From a virus, in the IMG/VR virus record IMGVR_UViG_3300001750_000036, positions 1 to 20,065 of that record: a stretch of 20,065 nucleotides of DNA; one strand, given 5' to 3'. Below the pieces are notes generated by a model, which was not told the DNA's origin, ran no database searches, and was given only the letters and a program-made list of their open reading frames with translations. How positions within the stretch are numbered: the stretch's first letter is position 1; each line of letters begins with the position of its first letter. Positions 1,470-10,238 of this stretch are shown here, one piece after another. Position numbers and translations under genes: made by a program.

Positions 1470-1477
1470 TATAAATA
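1470..1477 (+). promoter_or_regulatory. T4-type late promoter box TATAAATA
   Basis: TATAAATA lies just after the stop of the first hydrophobic gene, in the context TTTTATAAATAAC. It is one of five such boxes at gene starts here. In T4 this octamer is the whole late promoter, recognised by the phage sigma factor gp55. With T4 spacing the transcript would start near 1483 and carry a leader of about 180 nt before the ATG at 1667. Confidence 0.75.
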
Positions 1478-1495: not shown

Positions 1496-1612
1496 CGTTA
1501 GGGCATAACGGAATTAACGCTTGTGGAGATGTTTCGTTAGAAACGTCTGTGAAGCAAGAAAAAGAATGTTTGGTTATCCAAACAGATGTCACAAAAGGTT
1601 ATAATCTTTTGT
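1496..1612 (+). promoter_or_regulatory. Structured late-mRNA leader: four consecutive hairpins
   Basis: Four perfect or near-perfect inverted repeats follow each other. CGTTA/TAACG is at 1496-1510. A 9-bp stem closed by the loop GTTA is at 1527-1548 (AGATGTTTC pairs with GAAACGTCT, one G-U), with a possible outer helix GCTT/AAGC at 1519-1522 and 1552-1555. TGTTTGG/CCAAACA with loop TTAT is at 1567-1584. ACAAAAG/CTTTTGT with an 8-nt loop is at 1591-1612. The sequence GTTA occurs once in each. No hairpin is followed by a U-run, so they do not look like intrinsic terminators. The segment is richer in G and C than its surroundings and lies between a late promoter and the next start codon. A leader structure controlling translation or mRNA stability is likely; a separate small RNA is possible. 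Confidence 0.5.
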
Positions 1613-1666
1613 GGAATGTCAAAAATAATTATGATTAAATAAATAAAAAAATTCAAGGATATATAA

Positions 1667-3562
1667 ATGATTATTTTACCTATGTTGATGGCTTTAGTTT
1701 TTTTTGCAGGGTTTTTACCTTTGTTGATGATAGTATTTGCTCTTCTTTTTCTCATTGTGGGTATTCCTATTCTTATTATTTTAATTATATTATTTTTTAT
1801 CTTTATATTTATTGTTATTATTTTTATCATTTTAGCTATTTTATTTTTTATCTTTGTAGTTGTCCCTGTTAGTATTATTATTATTATTTTAGCTATGTTA
1901 TTTTTTGTTTTTATAGTCATTCCTGTTAGTATTATTATTATTATTTTAGCTATATTATTTTTTGGATTTATTATTTTTATTGTATTGCCTATCGTCATTA
2001 TTATAATAATAAGTATTATAGCTTTTGTTATAATTTTTATCTTGTTTAATTTATTTATCATTCTGCCTATGGTGGCTTTTATAGTTGTATCAATAATTAT
2101 CATTAGCATTATTTTACTGGTTTTATTCTTTGGATTTAATTTGTTTATTATATTACCTATAATACTTTTTATAATAATATTGATATTCATTATTGGCATT
2201 ATATTGTTAGTGATATTCTTTGGCTTTATTATTTTTATTGTATTGCCTTTAATTATAGGATTTGGTGGAGTTAGTCTTTTTATTATAATTATAATAGTTT
2301 TTGTTTTATTACTTAGTTTTTTGATTATAATTCTTATTGCTCAAAGTATGTTTATTATTATTATTTTGGTTATATTAGTAATAATCTTTTTAATTATTTT
2401 TATACTTATTTTTATATTATTTATTGACGCTATGTTGGGACATATTCTCGGACCGATGTTTACAACTATTTTCGCAAGTTTAGCAGATATGTTTAATAGA
2501 GTTATAAGTTTTATAACTAATGTTTTATGGAAACTTATAGATGATATAGTAGATAGAATAAAATTATTTTTAGGATATGAAATTGGGGACATCTCGTTGA
2601 GTATAGTTGACTCCATAAGAGATATAATATTTAATATGTTTAATCAAAGTGAAGTTCCTGTTGATGATTTAATAAGAAATACTATAGATTATTTTTATAA
2701 TTTAATAACAAATATTATAACAACTGTTAGAGAACGGATAAGAAATTATATGCCAATTATCCCATTGTTAGGCGAGCAAGGGACAGAATTGATAAGAACA
2801 ATTCTTGATAACAGAATAGATTCAATATTTATAGACCTAACTAATCAAATAAAAAGAGTAATATTAGGAACAACTTATTTTAGCGACCCGGATGAGATTA
2901 ATACCGGTAAAAATATAATTGACCTCATAGGTGAAATGATATTTAGAAGAAGTTCAACAGATGTAAGATTAAGTGAAACACTAGAAAACTTTATATTAGA
3001 TTTATTAAATCGGAATTTTCTATTTGATAGTATGCTTACTAATATAGGTAAATTTGGTGGTAGATTTGATTTAATGAGTGTTGTATTTGATTTTCTAGTA
3101 AAAATAATTAACAGGCTTACGGGTAAAAATGATGATGATGATACAGATGACCCACCCCCAACAGGCGGAACAGGAGAACAAAAACCAACAGAAGAAGAAA
3201 CAGATAATAGTAAAGTATCCAATTTTAAAAGTAGATTAAGTTTATTATTTGCTCCATTAAGTAGCGTTCCTTTTAATACAATTATTAGTAATTTTATAGA
3301 ATTGATAAAAGACGCTTTTAATAAATTAAGAAGTTTTTCACCTGCTGAATGGTTAGACGATTCATTCCCATATTTTAAAGATGTATTTGATGATTTTATA
3401 CTTGTTATAAAAGATTATTTTATACATATAATAAATTTTAATTTAGTTGATTGGTTGGGTGAATATGTTCCATATTTTCAAGATGTGATAGACGCTTTCC
3501 TTGTCTTAATAAAAGATTTATTTGAAATAGTGTTACCTTTTAATTTAGGAAAAAATAGATAA
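1667..3562 (+). CDS. Large membrane protein: hydrophobic repeat half plus amphipathic helical half
   Basis: No family recognised. The start is supported by ATG at 1667 with AAGGA at 1655-1659. Residues 1 to about 250 contain no charged residue and repeat the same FNLFIILP-type 30-residue unit as the upstream gene, so they should form many membrane passes. From about residue 254 (IDAMLGHILGPMF) the protein becomes an amphipathic helical domain with ordinary composition. A low-complexity acidic Pro/Thr linker follows (about 486-520, beginning KNDDDDTDDPPPTGG). The last about 100 residues hold a 34-residue repeat with a PYFxDV core. The product is probably an integral membrane protein with a large soluble domain on one side, expressed late from the box at 1470 and followed 27 bases later by a coiled-coil gene. 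Its role could be in lysis, envelope remodelling or superinfection control; the sequence does not decide. Confidence 0.7.
   Translation: MIILPMLMALVFFAGFLPLLMIVFALLFLIVGIPILIILIILFFIFIFIVIIFIILAILFFIFVVVPVSIIIIILAMLFFVFIVIPVSIIIIILAILFFGFIIFIVLPIVIIIIISIIAFVIIFILFNLFIILPMVAFIVVSIIIISIILLVLFFGFNLFIILPIILFIIILIFIIGIILLVIFFGFIIFIVLPLIIGFGGVSLFIIIIIVFVLLLSFLIIILIAQSMFIIIILVILVIIFLIIFILIFILFIDAMLGHILGPMFTTIFASLADMFNRVISFITNVLWKLIDDIVDRIKLFLGYEIGDISLSIVDSIRDIIFNMFNQSEVPVDDLIRNTIDYFYNLITNIITTVRERIRNYMPIIPLLGEQGTELIRTILDNRIDSIFIDLTNQIKRVILGTTYFSDPDEINTGKNIIDLIGEMIFRRSSTDVRLSETLENFILDLLNRNFLFDSMLTNIGKFGGRFDLMSVVFDFLVKIINRLTGKNDDDDTDDPPPTGGTGEQKPTEEETDNSKVSNFKSRLSLLFAPLSSVPFNTIISNFIELIKDAFNKLRSFSPAEWLDDSFPYFKDVFDDFILVIKDYFIHIINFNLVDWLGEYVPYFQDVIDAFLVLIKDLFEIVLPFNLGKNR
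1864..1980 (+). repeat. 57-bp tandem duplication (19 residues)
   Basis: The unit coding VPVSIIIIILAMLFFVFIV occurs twice in direct tandem. CCTGTTAGT appears at 1865 and 1922, 57 bp apart, and is followed both times by an ATT run and TTAGCTAT. The copies differ by few bases, which suggests recent duplication within the hydrophobic half of the gene. Confidence 0.8.
2063..2332 (+). repeat. Three 90-bp units matching the repeat of the upstream gene
   Basis: Leu-Pro codon pairs lie at 2063, 2153 and 2243, exactly 90 bp apart, each in the FNLFIILP or FIIFIVLP context with FFGF between units. The unit length and motif equal those in the gene at 1-1464, so the two genes share one repeat family. An earlier degenerate copy has its Leu-Pro at 1985. 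Confidence 0.8.
3256..3547 (+). repeat. About 102-bp degenerate repeat (34 residues), nearly three copies
   Basis: In the C-terminal end of the large membrane protein, the segment EWLDDSFPYFKDVFDDF is followed 34 residues later by DWLGEYVPYFQDVIDAF. A weaker first copy (VPFNTIISNFIELIKDAF) precedes them. Each copy ends in an IKD motif (ELIKD, LVIKD, VLIKD). The pattern suggests a repeated amphipathic helical hairpin. Confidence 0.7.
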
Positions 3563-4448: not shown

Positions 4449-4464
4449 AAAGGAGTACAACGAC

Positions 4465-4731
4465 ATTAACAAAATAATCTTAACAACAACTTTTATTATT
4501 TTATTTACATCTTGTGCGTTCTTTACTAAAAATAAAATAGAAGAACTGCCAACTATTGTTTATAAACAAATTTATGTTCAAACTCCTTTGCCTGAGCTTC
4601 CTGTTCCACAAATACCAAAAATTCAGACAAAAGAACTTCTATTAAAAGAATTACAAAAAGCAATTTTTATATTGTCTGAATATGAAAAGTATAGAATTGA
4701 TATGGACAATTCTTCTAACCCTATAAAATAA
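4465..4731 (+). CDS. Small lipoprotein, o-spanin-like, apparent ATT start
   Basis: An 88-codon reading frame. The first possible codon behind a strong ribosome site (AAAAGGAG, 4448-4455) is ATT at 4465; upstream in frame up to the stop at 4432 there is no ATG, GTG or TTG. The translation begins (M/I)NKIILTTTFIILFTSC, a standard lipoprotein signal peptide: one Lys, a hydrophobic core and a lipobox-type LFTSC with Cys at residue 17. The mature part is short, with a Pro-rich stretch (TPLPELPVPQIP) and a C-terminal helix. This is the plan of Rz1-like outer-membrane spanins, which fuse inner and outer membranes at lysis. Ordinary gene calling would miss it because of the start codon. Either ATT is used, or ATT is a sequencing error or mutation for ATG. 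Function is inferred from architecture only. Confidence 0.6.
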   Translation: MNKIILTTTFIILFTSCAFFTKNKIEELPTIVYKQIYVQTPLPELPVPQIPKIQTKELLLKELQKAIFILSEYEKYRIDMDNSSNPIK

Positions 4732-4768: not shown

Positions 4769-4776
4769 TATAAATA
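4769..4776 (+). promoter_or_regulatory. T4-type late promoter box TATAAATA
   Basis: TATAAATA in the context TTATTATAAATAAAG, just upstream of the probable gp33 gene. With T4 geometry the transcript would begin about 4782, only about four bases before ATG 4786. The message for gp33 from this promoter would then be nearly leaderless, or the box mainly serves gp32 downstream. Confidence 0.7.
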
Positions 4777-4785
4777 AAGTTGAAT

Positions 4786-4992
4786 ATGTTATCCGTTGAA
4801 TTGTTCCATCAAACAGTAAATGAAGAAATTATCAAACATCAGAAAGTAAATAATTCTGATTTAATGGAAGCAATTATTTTAGTTATGGAAAAATTCGATG
4901 TTGATTTTTCTGTAATAAGTAGTATATTAAATGAAGATATTAAAGCTCAGTTTTTGACTGAGTGTAGAAATAAAAGATTATTAAAAAAATAA
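4786..4992 (+). CDS. 33: Probable late-transcription co-activator gp33
   Basis: A 68-residue protein from ATG 4786; a TTG at 4780 in frame would add two residues. Neither start has a clear ribosome site. In T4, gp33 bridges RNA polymerase, the gp55 sigma factor and the gp45 sliding clamp at TATAAATA promoters. The central part (LMEAIILVMEKFDVDFSVISSIL, split here as LMEAIILVMEKF and DVDFSVISSIL) followed by NEDIKAQFLTECRNKRLLKK resembles the short gp33 proteins of marine T4-like phages as I remember them. Position just before gene 32 matches T4, where 33 lies close upstream of 32. The late boxes in this window require such a factor. The protein is much shorter than T4 gp33, and the match is from memory of a short weakly conserved family, so the call is moderate. 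Confidence 0.6.
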   Translation: MLSVELFHQTVNEEIIKHQKVNNSDLMEAIILVMEKFDVDFSVISSILNEDIKAQFLTECRNKRLLKK

Positions 4993-5004: not shown

Positions 5005-5898
5005 ATGAATAGTCTAGCAGAATTAAAAAAGAAAAGAGGTGGTTTAAAAAAATTGAAAGAAAATATGAAGGTGATGAAAGAAGGTACATCATATCCAGAA
5101 GATATTTTAAGTTCAAAGATTTTTTGGAGTTTGAAAAGGGATAAGCAAGATAACGGTTACGCTATAATCCGGTTTTTACCGTCAATCAAAGAAGACGCTT
5201 TACCATTTATAACTTTTTACCGTCATATTTGTAAAAAAAATAATAAATGGTTTATTGAAAATTGTCCAACAACAATAAAACGAGAATGTCCGGTATGTGA
5301 ATATAATAGAATGTTGTGGGACACTAATAAAAAAGATGAAGCTAGAAATAATAGTAGAAAGAAAATTTATATTTCAAATATACTGGTTGTCAACGACCCA
5401 ACAAACCCTGAAAATAATGGGAAAATTTTTATGTATAAGTTTGGTGAAAGAATAATGAATATTATACAAGAAAAATTAGACCCAAAATTCCCTGATGAAG
5501 AACCTGTAAATGTTTTTGATTTTTGGGAAGGTGCTGATTTTAGATTAAAATGTAAAAAACTTGATGGATTTATCAATTATAATTCTTCAACGTTTGATAG
5601 TTCAACTTCATTAGAAGAAGAAAATATAAAAAGAATTTGGAAAGAATTAAATGAATGTGAAATCAAAATTAAAGATTTATTGTTAGAAAAACATTTCTCG
5701 ACTTATGAGAATATTAAAAAGAAATTTGATAGGTTTAATAATAAACCAACTGTAAAAGAAAATGTAGGTCAAAAGGATAGTTTAAATGTTAGTAATCCTA
5801 CTCTTATAAAGACTCCAGAACCAATTCCAAAAACAATAAAAGAATCAAGTAATAAAGATTTAGAATATTTTAGTAAATTAGCAGATGAGGAGTTATAA
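5005..5898 (+). CDS. 32: Single-stranded DNA-binding protein gp32
   Basis: The product coats single-stranded DNA in replication, recombination and repair. At 297 residues it is close to the 301 of T4 gp32. The zinc site is intact: His74, Cys87, Cys95 and Cys98, with spacings 12, 7 and 2 against 12, 9 and 2 in T4. The N-terminal basic segment (ELKKKRGGLKKLKENMK) fits the region used for cooperative binding. The core contains FWSLKRD and the IRFLPS strand, and the C-terminus is acidic (YFSKLADEEL), as expected for the tail that recruits partner proteins. ATG 5005 has a near-perfect ribosome site (AAGGAGGT, 4991-4998), in keeping with high expression. The last codons contain GAGGAG, which serves as ribosome site for the next gene two bases downstream of the stop. 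Confidence 0.95.
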   Translation: MNSLAELKKKRGGLKKLKENMKVMKEGTSYPEDILSSKIFWSLKRDKQDNGYAIIRFLPSIKEDALPFITFYRHICKKNNKWFIENCPTTIKRECPVCEYNRMLWDTNKKDEARNNSRKKIYISNILVVNDPTNPENNGKIFMYKFGERIMNIIQEKLDPKFPDEEPVNVFDFWEGADFRLKCKKLDGFINYNSSTFDSSTSLEEENIKRIWKELNECEIKIKDLLLEKHFSTYENIKKKFDRFNNKPTVKENVGQKDSLNVSNPTLIKTPEPIPKTIKESSNKDLEYFSKLADEEL

Positions 5899-5900
5899 AA

Positions 5901-6659
5901 ATGAGTGATATACCTTCAATGAAAGTAAAATTACCAAAGATTGATGTTGTAAATTATACTTTAGAGATACCGTCAACTAAAAAAGAATTACTTTATAGAC
6001 CTTTTTTAGTTAAAGAAGAAAAGATATTATTACAAGCTACACAACAAAATAATGAAAAGGATACTATTCGAGCAATAACACAAATAATTAATAATTGTAT
6101 TTTAACCGAAGATTTTAATGTTGATGAATTAACTCTTTTTGATTTAGAATATATTTTTTTACAATTAAGAGCTAAATCTATTGGTGAAGTAATAGAGTTG
6201 ACATTAAGTCATCCTAATAATAAAAATAAAAGTGGTGAAGAATGTACTGGAGTTTTCCCTTATGAATTAAATGTAGATGATATAGAAGTTTGTTTTAATG
6301 AAAAAAACAATAATGTCATTAAATTGTCTGATACTATGGGAGTAAAATTAAAATATCCAAGTTATAAATTATTACCTAAATTAACTAAAATTAAGGAGGA
6401 TAATTTTGACTCCATTTTAGATGTAATTTTAAATTGTGTAGATTATATCTATGATGGTGATAATGTTTATTATGCCAAAGATATATCAAAATCAGAGTTG
6501 AGTGAATTTTTTATGAATTTTAATACAAAACAGTTTCAAGAAGTACAAACTTTTTTTGAAACATTACCAATTATTAGAAAAGAAATAATTTATACTTGTC
6601 CGAAATGTGGTGAGGAAGAAAAAATTGTACTGGAGGGTTTGCAAAATTTTTTCACCTAA
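5901..6659 (+). CDS. 26: Baseplate hub protein, gp26-like (T4 baseplate family)
   Basis: A 252-residue protein starting two bases after gp32, with GAGGAG (5886-5891) inside the end of gene 32. The N-terminal pattern (MKVKLPKIDVVNYTLEIPST, then LLYRPFLVKEEKILLQA) and FNVDELTLFDLEYIFLQLRAKS are those of T4 gp26-like baseplate hub proteins found in T4-like and marine myophages. A CPKCG motif near the C-terminus (about residues 234-238) is followed by the end LEGLQNFFT. These proteins act in hub assembly around the tape measure. The reading frame ends on a slippery run, and a second gp51-like segment continues in the -1 frame. The gene may thus give both this product and a fusion of about 320 residues ending at 6862. 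Whether the product is a structural hub subunit or a chaperone is uncertain. Confidence 0.8.
   Translation: MSDIPSMKVKLPKIDVVNYTLEIPSTKKELLYRPFLVKEEKILLQATQQNNEKDTIRAITQIINNCILTEDFNVDELTLFDLEYIFLQLRAKSIGEVIELTLSHPNNKNKSGEECTGVFPYELNVDDIEVCFNEKNNNVIKLSDTMGVKLKYPSYKLLPKLTKIKEDNFDSILDVILNCVDYIYDGDNVYYAKDISKSELSEFFMNFNTKQFQEVQTFFETLPIIRKEIIYTCPKCGEEEKIVLEGLQNFFT
6632..6653 (+). promoter_or_regulatory. Putative programmed -1 frameshift site
   Basis: In the gp26 frame the sequence at 6644-6653 reads A AAT TTT TTC. It contains two overlapping heptamers of the X XXY YYZ form: A AAT TTT (6644-6650) and T TTT TTC (6647-6653). Six bases upstream lies GGAGGG (6632-6637), an SD-like stimulator as known for E. 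coli dnaX. The -1 frame is open from here through the gp51-like segment to 6862, while the zero frame ends at 6659. I see no strong downstream hairpin. Confidence 0.6.
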
Positions 6660-6676: not shown

Positions 6677-6862
6677 TTGGTACTTTATTATAGAATCAAT
6701 TTTGCTTTAATGACACACTATAAGTATAGTTTAAATGAATTAGATAATATGATACCTTATGAGCGAGAAATTTATATAGCTTTACTTCAACAATGGATAA
6801 AAGAGGAGAATGAAAAGACAGAAAAGTTGAATAGAGAAAGAAAAGTTAAAAATAGAAAGTAA
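6677..6862 (+). CDS. 51: gp51-like hub assembly segment, probably the -1 frame extension of gp26
   Basis: The visible product (61 residues from TTG 6677) contains YYRINFALMTHYKYSLNELDNMIP followed by YEREIY, quoted here as YYRINFALMTHYKYS and LNELDNMIPYEREIY. This matches what I remember of the C-terminal or gp51-type segment of T4-like hub assembly proteins. The C-terminus is a charged helix. TTG 6677 has no ribosome site. The frame is open upstream across the end of gp26 (FFHLSVGYNSLVLYY), so translation by -1 slippage at 6644-6653 seems better than independent initiation. The fusion would append about 70 residues. The alternatives are a separate weakly started gene, or initiation at ATG 6710, which would cut off conserved residues. 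The stop at 6860-6862 runs straight into the first terminator hairpin. Confidence 0.65.
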   Translation: MVLYYRINFALMTHYKYSLNELDNMIPYEREIYIALLQQWIKEENEKTEKLNRERKVKNRK

Positions 6863-6947: not shown

Positions 6948-9900
6948 ATGGATAACTCTCAAAAAGAATTAAGTAATAATTTAAAAAAAGCCGTTGAGCC
7001 TTTGGTTCAACGAACGGAAAAGTTTATTAAAGTTGTATCTGAAAATATATCAAAAAATAATAAATCTGTATCCAATATTCAAAAACCATTTATAAAAACT
7101 TTTAATTTAATAGATAAGAATTTGGGTAGTAATATTACCAAATTAGATAATATTGTTCCAGTTAAAGATAAAGAAAGTAATATTGTAACAAAAGCAATTA
7201 AACCTATTTTATCAAAATTACCAACCGCAAAAGATTTTGACCCTACAAAAATGGGCGATGTTTTCTTTTCCGCATTAGACGCTAGTGGTATAATGGGCGG
7301 AATGATGAGGCAAAGTCCAGCTTTAATGCTTGCAACAAGTTTTATCGCTAAAAAAGGTCATTCATTGATGGAAGGTTTAAGAGAAAAACGAGTACCGAAA
7401 GAAGACGGTATTAAGAAAATACCCATTAAAGATAATAAAGAAAAAGAAAAACAAATATCTCAACCTTCATTTATAAAAGAAAAAGAAGTTGAAAATATTA
7501 AAGAAACTTCTTTTAATGACACTGATTTAAATATTTTATCTAGTATTTTAAATAATATATATAATACTTTAAGAGATATATTAAATTCAGTACATAGAAG
7601 TTTTTCTTTTTCAAAAGATACAGTACAAGCTGATGAACACAATTTATTAGCTCAAAGAGAAGCTACCAGAGAACAATCAAATGCTTTACAACTTGCTTTG
7701 GGTGGAATTGCTGGTGCTGGAACATCGACTATAATTGAAGGTGATAATATTAAAAAAATGGGTGGTATGTTTTCGAGTGGCATAATGGGTATAAAAAATA
7801 CATTTATGACAGGAGCAAGTAAATTAGTTAAAGCTATTGCAAGTCCAACTGGTGCTTTAGTTGCCGGAGTTGCGGCTGTGGGGTTAGCAACCTTTGGAGC
7901 AGTTAAAGCATTAAAACGAACGGGGGAAATAACAGGAAAACAAGAAGAAAATATAACAGCTCTTGATAAAACATTAGTAGGTACTGCTGGAGCTTTAAGT
8001 GGTTTGACGCTTGGATTAGTAAAAACCGAAACTATGTATAAAGGGATACAATGGGTGGGGGATTGGTTTAAAAAATTTCCAGTATTTTTAGAAAAATTAC
8101 CTCAAATGTTTAGTATTGTAATTAAAAAATCTGTAGATTGGATTTTAGGGTTTTTTCAAAAATTTCAAGAATTTATCCCTGAATTACGAAATATGATTGT
8201 AAATATAGCTACTTGGTTTGTTAAAGTATTTAAAAATATTATAAAATTATCTTTAAAATTATTATGGGAATTAATAAAAAATCTTCCTAAAATGTTATTG
8301 GGGGTATTAAAGTTATCATTTGTTATATTTAAAAATGTAGTAATATTATTAGGACAATTATTATGGGAATCTGTAAAAATGATATTAAAGGGTTTATTAA
8401 ATATTCCTAAATTATTATGGAATGGAATAAAAGCACTACCGGATTTATTATGGAAAGGATTAAAATTATATTTTGAAATATTAAAAGGATTTTTTTTCAC
8501 ACTCCCTATGATGATAATGAAATTATTTTTAAAATTACCAATGTTATTATGGAAAGGTTTAACAAAATTTGGAAGTTGGATATGGAAAAAATTTATAAGT
8601 TTACCAACGTTAATATGGGAGAAATTACAAGGAATATTTACAGGAATTGTTGATGCTATAAAAACAGTCATTGCTACAATACCCGGAGTTAAAACCGAAG
8701 ATGAAAAAGAAATGAACAAGTTAAGAGAAGAATTAGATGATACAAGAGGCGAAAATCAAAAAGAAGTTATTATTAAAATTATAGATAAAGCTAGAGATAT
8801 AGGTACGAAGAAAGGATTGCGTCAAATAACTAAAAAAGAAGATGAAGAAGAAAGACAATTAACGGATAAAGAAAGGGCTGAAATAATAGATAAAGAAGTA
8901 GTAAAAGCCCAATTAGAATGGTTAGAAGAAATACGAGGAGTTCAGAATCTAATGTTAAGACCTTTAAGATGGCTCGGAGTAGGTGGAAAAGAAATAGAAC
9001 AAAAAGGAATTGCCGACCTAAACAAGAAAATTCAAACACTCGAAAGAGGTAAAAGTATCCCTCAATCTTCTTCTACAACACAAGAGATAAAGGTAATAGG
9101 TCAAAAAGAAAAAGGTGGGGTGATATATAAAACTGGATTATATAAACTTCATAAAGGCGAAGAAGTTATCCCATCTGATACAGTAAATAATTTAACTCCA
9201 AGCATTTTTAGTGATAAATTAACTAAAAATTTTATTCCAGCGATGGCTTCTTTTTTGATGGTAACTTCTTCAGGAATATTACAACCACAAAATAATTTTA
9301 ATACTTTTAATAATAATATAAATTCTCCAGAAAATTCAAAATTATCTACTATTATAAATAAACACATAATAGACCCCTTTGAAAAATTATTTAAAATTGA
9401 AAGTCGGGATACTTCCTCAAAAAAAATAACAACATTTAATATTAACAATATCAATAAATCTTCATCTATAAGTGATAAAAATGATACATTTACTGATATG
9501 GCTAATAAATTTAATCCTTTACGTATATTTCCGTCATTAAAAAGAAAAGAACCTAATAAAAATGACATATATAATTATTTAATAAATAATAAAGGTACAA
9601 CTCCTTTACAAGCTCAGGGGATTATAGCTAATATTGAAGCAGAGTCAAGTTTTAGAACAGGAGCGATGGGCGATTCTGGTACATCTGGAGGGTTATTTCA
9701 ACATCATAATACAAGGTTTGAAGGAATGAAAAATTATGTGGGTGGAGATAATTGGAAACAAGATTGGAGAGGTCAAATAGATTATGCTTTTACTGAACGT
9801 GAAATGAAAAAATATTTATTAAGAGAAATTAAAACTATATCAGAAGCAACCAGTTATTTTGTAAGAGATTTTGAAAAACCTAAAAATACAAATTTTGAAA

Positions 9901-10238
9901 TTAAAAAAAGAATTAAAATTGCAAAATTAAATCAAGAAAAATTAACTTTAAATCCACAAAAACAATCATTTCAACAACAATATACTATGCGTTCTAATAT
10001 CCCTACTGTAATATCTCCGTTAGAAAAGCAATATATGATGTTACAACAAAGAGAAGCTCAACGAGACACTTTAAAATTACAACAAGCAACCGAAGAAAGT
10101 CAAGTTACAAGCGGAGGGAATAATCTTGTTTCTGCAAATAATAATAATACTAATAATGTTAGTACAAATACAATAAACGTCAGTGATAGCACAGGTTTAA
10201 ATGATACGCTTATGAACATACATAAGTTTATAAATTAA
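6948..10238 (+). CDS. Tape measure protein with tail-lysozyme domain
   Basis: A 1096-residue protein, the functional counterpart of T4 gp29 by position after the hub chaperone and by composition. It would set tail length and leave the tail with the DNA. The N-terminal about 200 residues are charged helices. Around 255-345 there are Gly/Ala-rich hydrophobic segments (LVAGVAAVGLATFGAVKAL). From about 370 to 580 lies a Trp/Leu-rich amphipathic repeat region (IPKLLWNGIKALPDLLWKGL). The segment YKTGLYKLHKGEEVIPSD (about 722-745) is typical of tape-measure C-termini. At about 875-985 is a lysozyme-like domain (GIIANIEAESSFRTGAMGDS, then GGLFQHH), with a Glu in NIEAESSF the likely catalytic residue. 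It is the Phage_lysozyme2 / tail lysozyme type, which opens peptidoglycan during DNA entry. The Asn-rich C-terminus may be unstructured. The only plausible start has no ribosome site and lies almost at the predicted transcript start. Confidence 0.85.
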   Translation: MDNSQKELSNNLKKAVEPLVQRTEKFIKVVSENISKNNKSVSNIQKPFIKTFNLIDKNLGSNITKLDNIVPVKDKESNIVTKAIKPILSKLPTAKDFDPTKMGDVFFSALDASGIMGGMMRQSPALMLATSFIAKKGHSLMEGLREKRVPKEDGIKKIPIKDNKEKEKQISQPSFIKEKEVENIKETSFNDTDLNILSSILNNIYNTLRDILNSVHRSFSFSKDTVQADEHNLLAQREATREQSNALQLALGGIAGAGTSTIIEGDNIKKMGGMFSSGIMGIKNTFMTGASKLVKAIASPTGALVAGVAAVGLATFGAVKALKRTGEITGKQEENITALDKTLVGTAGALSGLTLGLVKTETMYKGIQWVGDWFKKFPVFLEKLPQMFSIVIKKSVDWILGFFQKFQEFIPELRNMIVNIATWFVKVFKNIIKLSLKLLWELIKNLPKMLLGVLKLSFVIFKNVVILLGQLLWESVKMILKGLLNIPKLLWNGIKALPDLLWKGLKLYFEILKGFFFTLPMMIMKLFLKLPMLLWKGLTKFGSWIWKKFISLPTLIWEKLQGIFTGIVDAIKTVIATIPGVKTEDEKEMNKLREELDDTRGENQKEVIIKIIDKARDIGTKKGLRQITKKEDEEERQLTDKERAEIIDKEVVKAQLEWLEEIRGVQNLMLRPLRWLGVGGKEIEQKGIADLNKKIQTLERGKSIPQSSSTTQEIKVIGQKEKGGVIYKTGLYKLHKGEEVIPSDTVNNLTPSIFSDKLTKNFIPAMASFLMVTSSGILQPQNNFNTFNNNINSPENSKLSTIINKHIIDPFEKLFKIESRDTSSKKITTFNINNINKSSSISDKNDTFTDMANKFNPLRIFPSLKRKEPNKNDIYNYLINNKGTTPLQAQGIIANIEAESSFRTGAMGDSGTSGGLFQHHNTRFEGMKNYVGGDNWKQDWRGQIDYAFTEREMKKYLLREIKTISEATSYFVRDFEKPKNTNFEIKKRIKIAKLNQEKLTLNPQKQSFQQQYTMRSNIPTVISPLEKQYMMLQQREAQRDTLKLQQATEESQVTSGGNNLVSANNNNTNNVSTNTINVSDSTGLNDTLMNIHKFIN

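Follow-up and report, generated by a model that had tools for sequence, protein, structure and literature searches.

A repeat-built phage protein with a charge-free N-terminal half and an amphipathic C-terminal half in a probable late gene block of a divergent T4-like myophage

What role could be played by a phage protein whose first 253 residues carry no charged side chain, and whose remaining sequence is amphipathic and helical in pattern? This question is raised by an open reading frame, termed ORF B here, near the left end of a 20-kb virus record (IMGVR_UViG_3300001750_000036), the whole of which was analysed and is referred to as the window (20,065 nucleotides). ORF B is located between a second hydrophobic, repeat-bearing frame (ORF A) and three smaller frames, while the right part of the window belongs to a divergent T4-like myophage (Table 1). 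Further genes of the window encode gp53 (phrog_232; e-value: 2.7e-15), gp5 (phrog_430; e-value: 5.8e-73), a tail protein and a PAAR protein. Judged by its complement of core genes (gp32, gp26, gp51, gp53, gp33 and gp5), the window as a whole is a stretch of a T4-like myophage genome, and TATAAATA late promoters are found before its late genes. Compared with known phages, the best identities are approximately 43% (gp26) and 25% (tail protein), and the phage collection searched thus contains no close relative of this phage. The tape measure of the window harbors a basic, amphipathic, Trp-rich stretch at approximately residues 380-600. The DUF4815 protein has its own upstream TATAAATA box.

Table 1. 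Positions of the features discussed, in the numbering of the window
Feature	Position	Strand	Remarks
ORF A, 487 aa	1-1464	+	5′ end lost at contig edge; hydrophobic, 30-residue repeats
TATAAATA, T4-type late promoter box	1470-1477	+	~190 bases before ORF B
Row of four hairpins	1496-1613	+	presumed 5′ untranslated region of the B block
AAGGA, Shine-Dalgarno-like	1655-1659	+	7 bases before the ORF B ATG
ORF B, 631 aa	1667-3562	+	ATG 1667 to TAA 3562
ORF B residues 1-253	1667-2425	+	charge-free and hydrophobic; repeats punctuated by Pro; probably anchors the protein by several membrane passes
ORF B residues 254-631 and stop	2426-3562	+	amphipathic helical half (helical moment, repeat)
Acidic Pro/Thr linker, residues 488-515	3128-3211	+	11 D/E, 1 K/R
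34-residue repeat copy 1, residues 556-589	3332-3433	+	..WLDDSFPYFKDVFDDF..
34-residue repeat copy 2, residues 590-623	3434-3535	+	..WLGEYVPYFQDVIDAF..
ORF C, 209 aa	3590-4219	+	highly charged
ORF D, 75 aa	4221-4448	+	hydrophobic N-terminal helix, then charged coiled-coil-like helix
Lipoprotein-like frame	4465-4731	+	MNKIILTTTFIILFTSC.. then Pro-rich; o-spanin-like; ATT start
TATAAATA late promoter box before gp33	4769-4776	+	
gp33-like late transcription co-activator	4780-4992	+	phrog_254; E 2.3e-5
gp32	5005-5898		phrog_224; 1e-75
gp26	5901-6659		phrog_150; 1.1e-64
gp51	6677-6862		phrog_634; 7e-21
Tape measure	6948-10238		phage-lysozyme domain (PF18013) near C-terminus
DUF4815 protein, 1982 aa	10297-16245		phrog_358; E 1.3e-296

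The initial annotation, made from the DNA alone, had described some 250 uncharged residues followed by an amphipathic half. Residues 1-253 of ORF B indeed include no Asp, Glu, Lys or Arg, and among Asn, Gln, His, Tyr and Trp only N128, N158 and Q226 occur, while Ile contributes 95 of the 253 residues, Leu 44, Phe 44 and Val 25. The longest comparable charge-free hydrophobic run elsewhere, among approximately 23,700 frames from six-frame translations of other loci (a set from which loci chosen by low-complexity pattern were left out), extends over 120 residues. Several stretches of ORF B consist of units of approximately 30 residues of the type LPMVAFIVVSIIIISIILLVLFFGFNLFIILP. As these are tandem repeats at the DNA level, the hydrophobic halves of A and B may represent an expanding AT-rich repeat instead of functional protein, with the true gene being the C-terminal part or a frame on the other strand. 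The long frames that lie open on the antisense strand (633-1592 and 1537-2199) are compatible with this explanation, as is a generic hydrophobic-run scan of IMG/VR, where the matches listed are mostly apparent strand shadows of simple repeats. The differences between six repeat units of A and B argue against an untranslated repeat: at codon positions 1/2/3 of the + frame they amount to 0.32/0.14/0.47, with the second position the most conserved and the third the least, as expected if a hydrophobic protein is translated from the + strand, whereas in an antisense reading codon positions 1 and 2 would come in the wrong order. Furthermore, the reading frame is unbroken for 487 and 631 codons and continues into an amphipathic domain, the N-terminal ATG of ORF B is preceded by AAGGA, the GC skew fits the + strand, and the antisense products would be rich in Lys, Asn, Ile and Thr with very few acidic residues. 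We consider a repeat artefact highly improbable.

The repeat architecture is shared with ORF A, where the initial annotation had missed both the repeats and the charge-free runs. ORF A includes at least six FNLFxxLP units, of the approximately 30-residue FGFNLFxxLP type found in ORF B. Two of its stretches, 281 and 192 residues long, lack charge altogether, and charge is confined to its last ~15 residues, with the exception of one Asp at position 282. In a single BLASTP comparison, ORF A and ORF B share 76% amino acid identity over 33 residues (e-value: 1e-4). ORF A stops at a TGA codon, after which its frame stays open for 57 further codons (1462-1638; chance ~0.005 in shuffles). This may possibly reflect read-through or a lost C-terminus, and the open frame overlaps the row of hairpins that separates A from B. 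The region from 1465 to 1666 has a predicted folding energy of -42.1 kcal/mol (z -4.3), and the hairpin row has no match in Rfam.

The motif TATAAATA is the late promoter motif of T4, for which NATAAATA is found in S-PM2 (PMC2984593). Five copies are present in the 586 bases of intergenic sense strand, compared with 0.29 in shuffles, none of 2000 of which reached five. These are located upstream of ORF B, gp33, the tape measure gene and the DUF4815 gene, with one further copy after the PAAR gene. The motif shows no enrichment when the window is taken as a whole, and as such the evidence on timing rests on its placement. Given that the box at 1470 belongs to this significant intergenic set and that gp33 is present, ORF B is probably a late gene, and late expression of the block as a whole is supported.

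The C-terminal half of ORF B differs in character from the charge-free half. With the linker left out, the mean helical moment of residues 254-631 is 0.371, compared with 0.231 ± 0.021 in shuffles, and it peaks at 95-100 degrees, as that of an amphipathic α-helix should. Residues 556-585 and 590-619 align with a score of 85 (BLOSUM62; 30 residues), while the best of 200 shuffles scored 49. The amphipathic C-terminal helices, the acidic Pro/Thr linker, with its residue counts as tabulated, and the 34-residue PYFxDV repeat that had been read from the letters are thus all present. The same reading had likened these helices to the pore-lining segments of tape measures. Tape-measure PHROGs do match the C-terminal half (best e-value: 5.8e-5), but the reversed sequence matches the same profiles (best e-value: 9.4e-7). 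Since the reversed sequence performs as well or better, the matches reflect an amphipathic pattern and not descent, and tape-measure homology of ORF B is rejected on the basis of this control; the frame displays no profile similarity beyond composition and helical pattern. The likeness can be retained as one of pattern, whereas common descent can not, and the phage encodes a tape measure of its own. A profile search of the C-terminal half against phage databases likewise returned no family beyond pattern-level matches.

Segments of tape measures are thought to form an inner-membrane channel for DNA ejection. ORF B could accordingly be a virion or tail-delivered protein, the amphipathic half of which would be held in the tail tube or head and would, together with the hydrophobic half, form an inner-membrane channel for DNA ejection. 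The probable late promoter upstream of ORF B, its location a few kb upstream of the gp26 and tape measure block, and an amphipathic pattern common to tape measures, including that of the window, are consistent with such a role. We nevertheless consider it rather unlikely, as the survival of the tape-measure matches upon reversal leaves common descent unsupported, the phage already has a tape measure with a lysozyme domain, and an uncharged stretch of 253 residues would not easily remain soluble within a tail.

No relatives of ORF B were found in Pfam, NCBIfam, PDB or PADLOC, nor by tblastn in 50,697 phage records, and searches of IMG/VR with peptide patterns of the C-terminal half identified none. 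The PYFxDV DNA pattern occurs in ten stretches of IMG/VR, none of which is repeated or hydrophobic. Motif scans for the hydrophobic repeat in IMG/VR and GTDB genomes yielded no long charge-free frame among the matches listed, and tblastn with this repeat returned no relatives. At e-values of up to 10, the C-terminal half is absent from eight whole T4-like genomes except for one pattern-level match. The weak match in phage Sf-CH11 (e-value: 0.004; 13 bits) falls within a gene encoding a baseplate hub and tail lysozyme protein, and is of the same pattern-level kind as the tape-measure matches. In a gp26-bearing IMG/VR contig (L148), a frame near codon 3748 (frame 0) encodes a 726 amino acid protein with an amphipathic stretch weakly resembling B (14 bits), a likeness that is probably one of pattern only. 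The expectation that no described family has this plan was confirmed in every library searched. The ORF B family thus appears to be undescribed in the databases searched, while an orphan phage membrane protein is in itself a known kind of thing.

No ORF B-like gene was observed near gp26 in 80 gp26-bearing IMG/VR loci, the best of the first 600 matches listed, a sample in which near relatives may be missed. This further weakens the case for a virion protein and lends ORF B an accessory character. Along with its absence from the eight T4-like genomes and the membrane-type composition of A and B, this could be accounted for if both acted in the host membrane, either to block superinfection or to remodel that membrane in favor of virus production, and were dispensable for lysis and for particles. 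The promoter box, however, points to late expression, whereas superinfection exclusion is usually needed early, and known exclusion and defence profiles match none of A, B or C. We regard this role as about as unlikely as that of a virion protein.

The frames B, C, D and the lipoprotein-like frame follow one another in this order, closely packed, with gaps of 27, 1 and 16 bases. The first half of ORF C is composed of tandem repeats of 30 and 60-63 bases and its second half includes an acidic stretch; searches identified no relatives. Profile searches with ORF D gave weak coiled-coil-type matches and nothing else. Among the defence profiles of PADLOC, a single weak match to PtuA (e-value: 8.8e-5; 20 bits) covers its coiled-coil-like part and is taken as an effect of pattern. 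The plan of an i-spanin, with an N-terminal transmembrane segment and a periplasmic coiled coil, fits ORF D by eye, but its N-terminal helix has Lys and Glu inside and makes a poor transmembrane segment. The lipoprotein-like frame is preceded by a good Shine-Dalgarno sequence (AAGGAG; 4450-4455) and includes the Pro-rich TPLPELPVPQIP. It lacks an ATG, GTG or TTG start, and gene callers would miss it. Its lipobox, FTSC, fits [LVI][ASTVI][GAS]C at two of the three positions before the Cys and departs from the consensus, while comparison with the Rz-like spanin profile phrog_456 gave an e-value of 0.22, which amounts to no match.

A membrane anchor joined to an amphipathic helical half fits all measurements of ORF B, and the protein most likely acts in the host membrane. 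Our preferred, tentative reading, to which we assign a rough probability of one in three (0.33), is that ORF B is a late inner-membrane protein that acts on the host envelope at the end of infection, in lysis or permeabilisation. Several Pro-bounded helices of the charge-free half would insert into the inner membrane of the host, and the C-terminal half would form a chain of amphipathic helices which lies on the bilayer or may oligomerise. Together with A, C, D and the lipoprotein-like protein, ORF B would act at the host envelope late in infection, most likely by permeabilising or disrupting it for lysis. Such a role is suggested by the late timing, the lack of charged loops, the amphipathic half, and the coiled-coil-like and lipoprotein-like neighbors. 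Set against a lysis function are the absence from the window of an endolysin or a recognised holin, and the absence of any B homologue able to show conservation. A more elaborate proposal, which we consider distinctly unlikely, is that A, B, C, D and the lipoprotein-like protein constitute an undescribed trans-envelope apparatus. Its new protein architecture would provide a holin-like or pore function, with an inner-membrane part formed by the Pro-punctuated, charge-free 30-residue repeats joined to the amphipathic helical domain.

For a phage protein, a nearly charge-free repeat region of approximately 250 residues (470 in ORF A) joined to a helical domain represents an extreme of composition, and A and B would test the membrane insertion of chains without charged topology signals. 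Few lysis proteins are known from marine T4-like phages, and a probable late membrane-protein block near gp33 and gp32 is therefore a concrete lysis candidate. If unrelated to lysis, ORF B would still represent an orphan family worth naming.

Several known systems can be compared with this block. Two-component spanins of the Rz/Rz1 type, the features of which were taken from the literature (PMC6139136), resemble the arrangement seen here, in which ORF D, hydrophobic at its N-terminus and continuing into a coiled-coil-like helix, adjoins a short lipoprotein-like frame rich in Pro; the candidate pair differs in its profile e-value, its non-consensus lipobox and the lack of a standard start codon. 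Tape measures (PHROGs 1272, 4200, 58, 1535 and 5493) share with ORF B long runs of amphipathic helix, hydrophobic segments and late expression, whereas ORF B has no lysozyme domain, carries the charge-free N-terminal residues, and occurs in a phage with another tape measure. Holins, like ORF B, are late phage membrane proteins without enzymatic domains, but they are typically far smaller, with few transmembrane helices. A holin of more than 600 amino acids would be unusual, and neither A nor B matches a holin profile in Pfam, PHROGs or NCBIfam. A pore operon, csgGF, is carried by the distantly related marine T4-like phage Melnitz, and a role in lysis has been proposed but not proven for it (PMC9004378). 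CsgG is an outer-membrane β-barrel pore, whereas ORF B encodes a helical hydrophobic protein to which no relation is shown; the CsgGF operon of Melnitz and the pelagimyophages nevertheless resembles the B block in its location near the gp32 and gp26 region, and its membrane-pore genes have likewise been proposed to aid lysis (PMC9004378).
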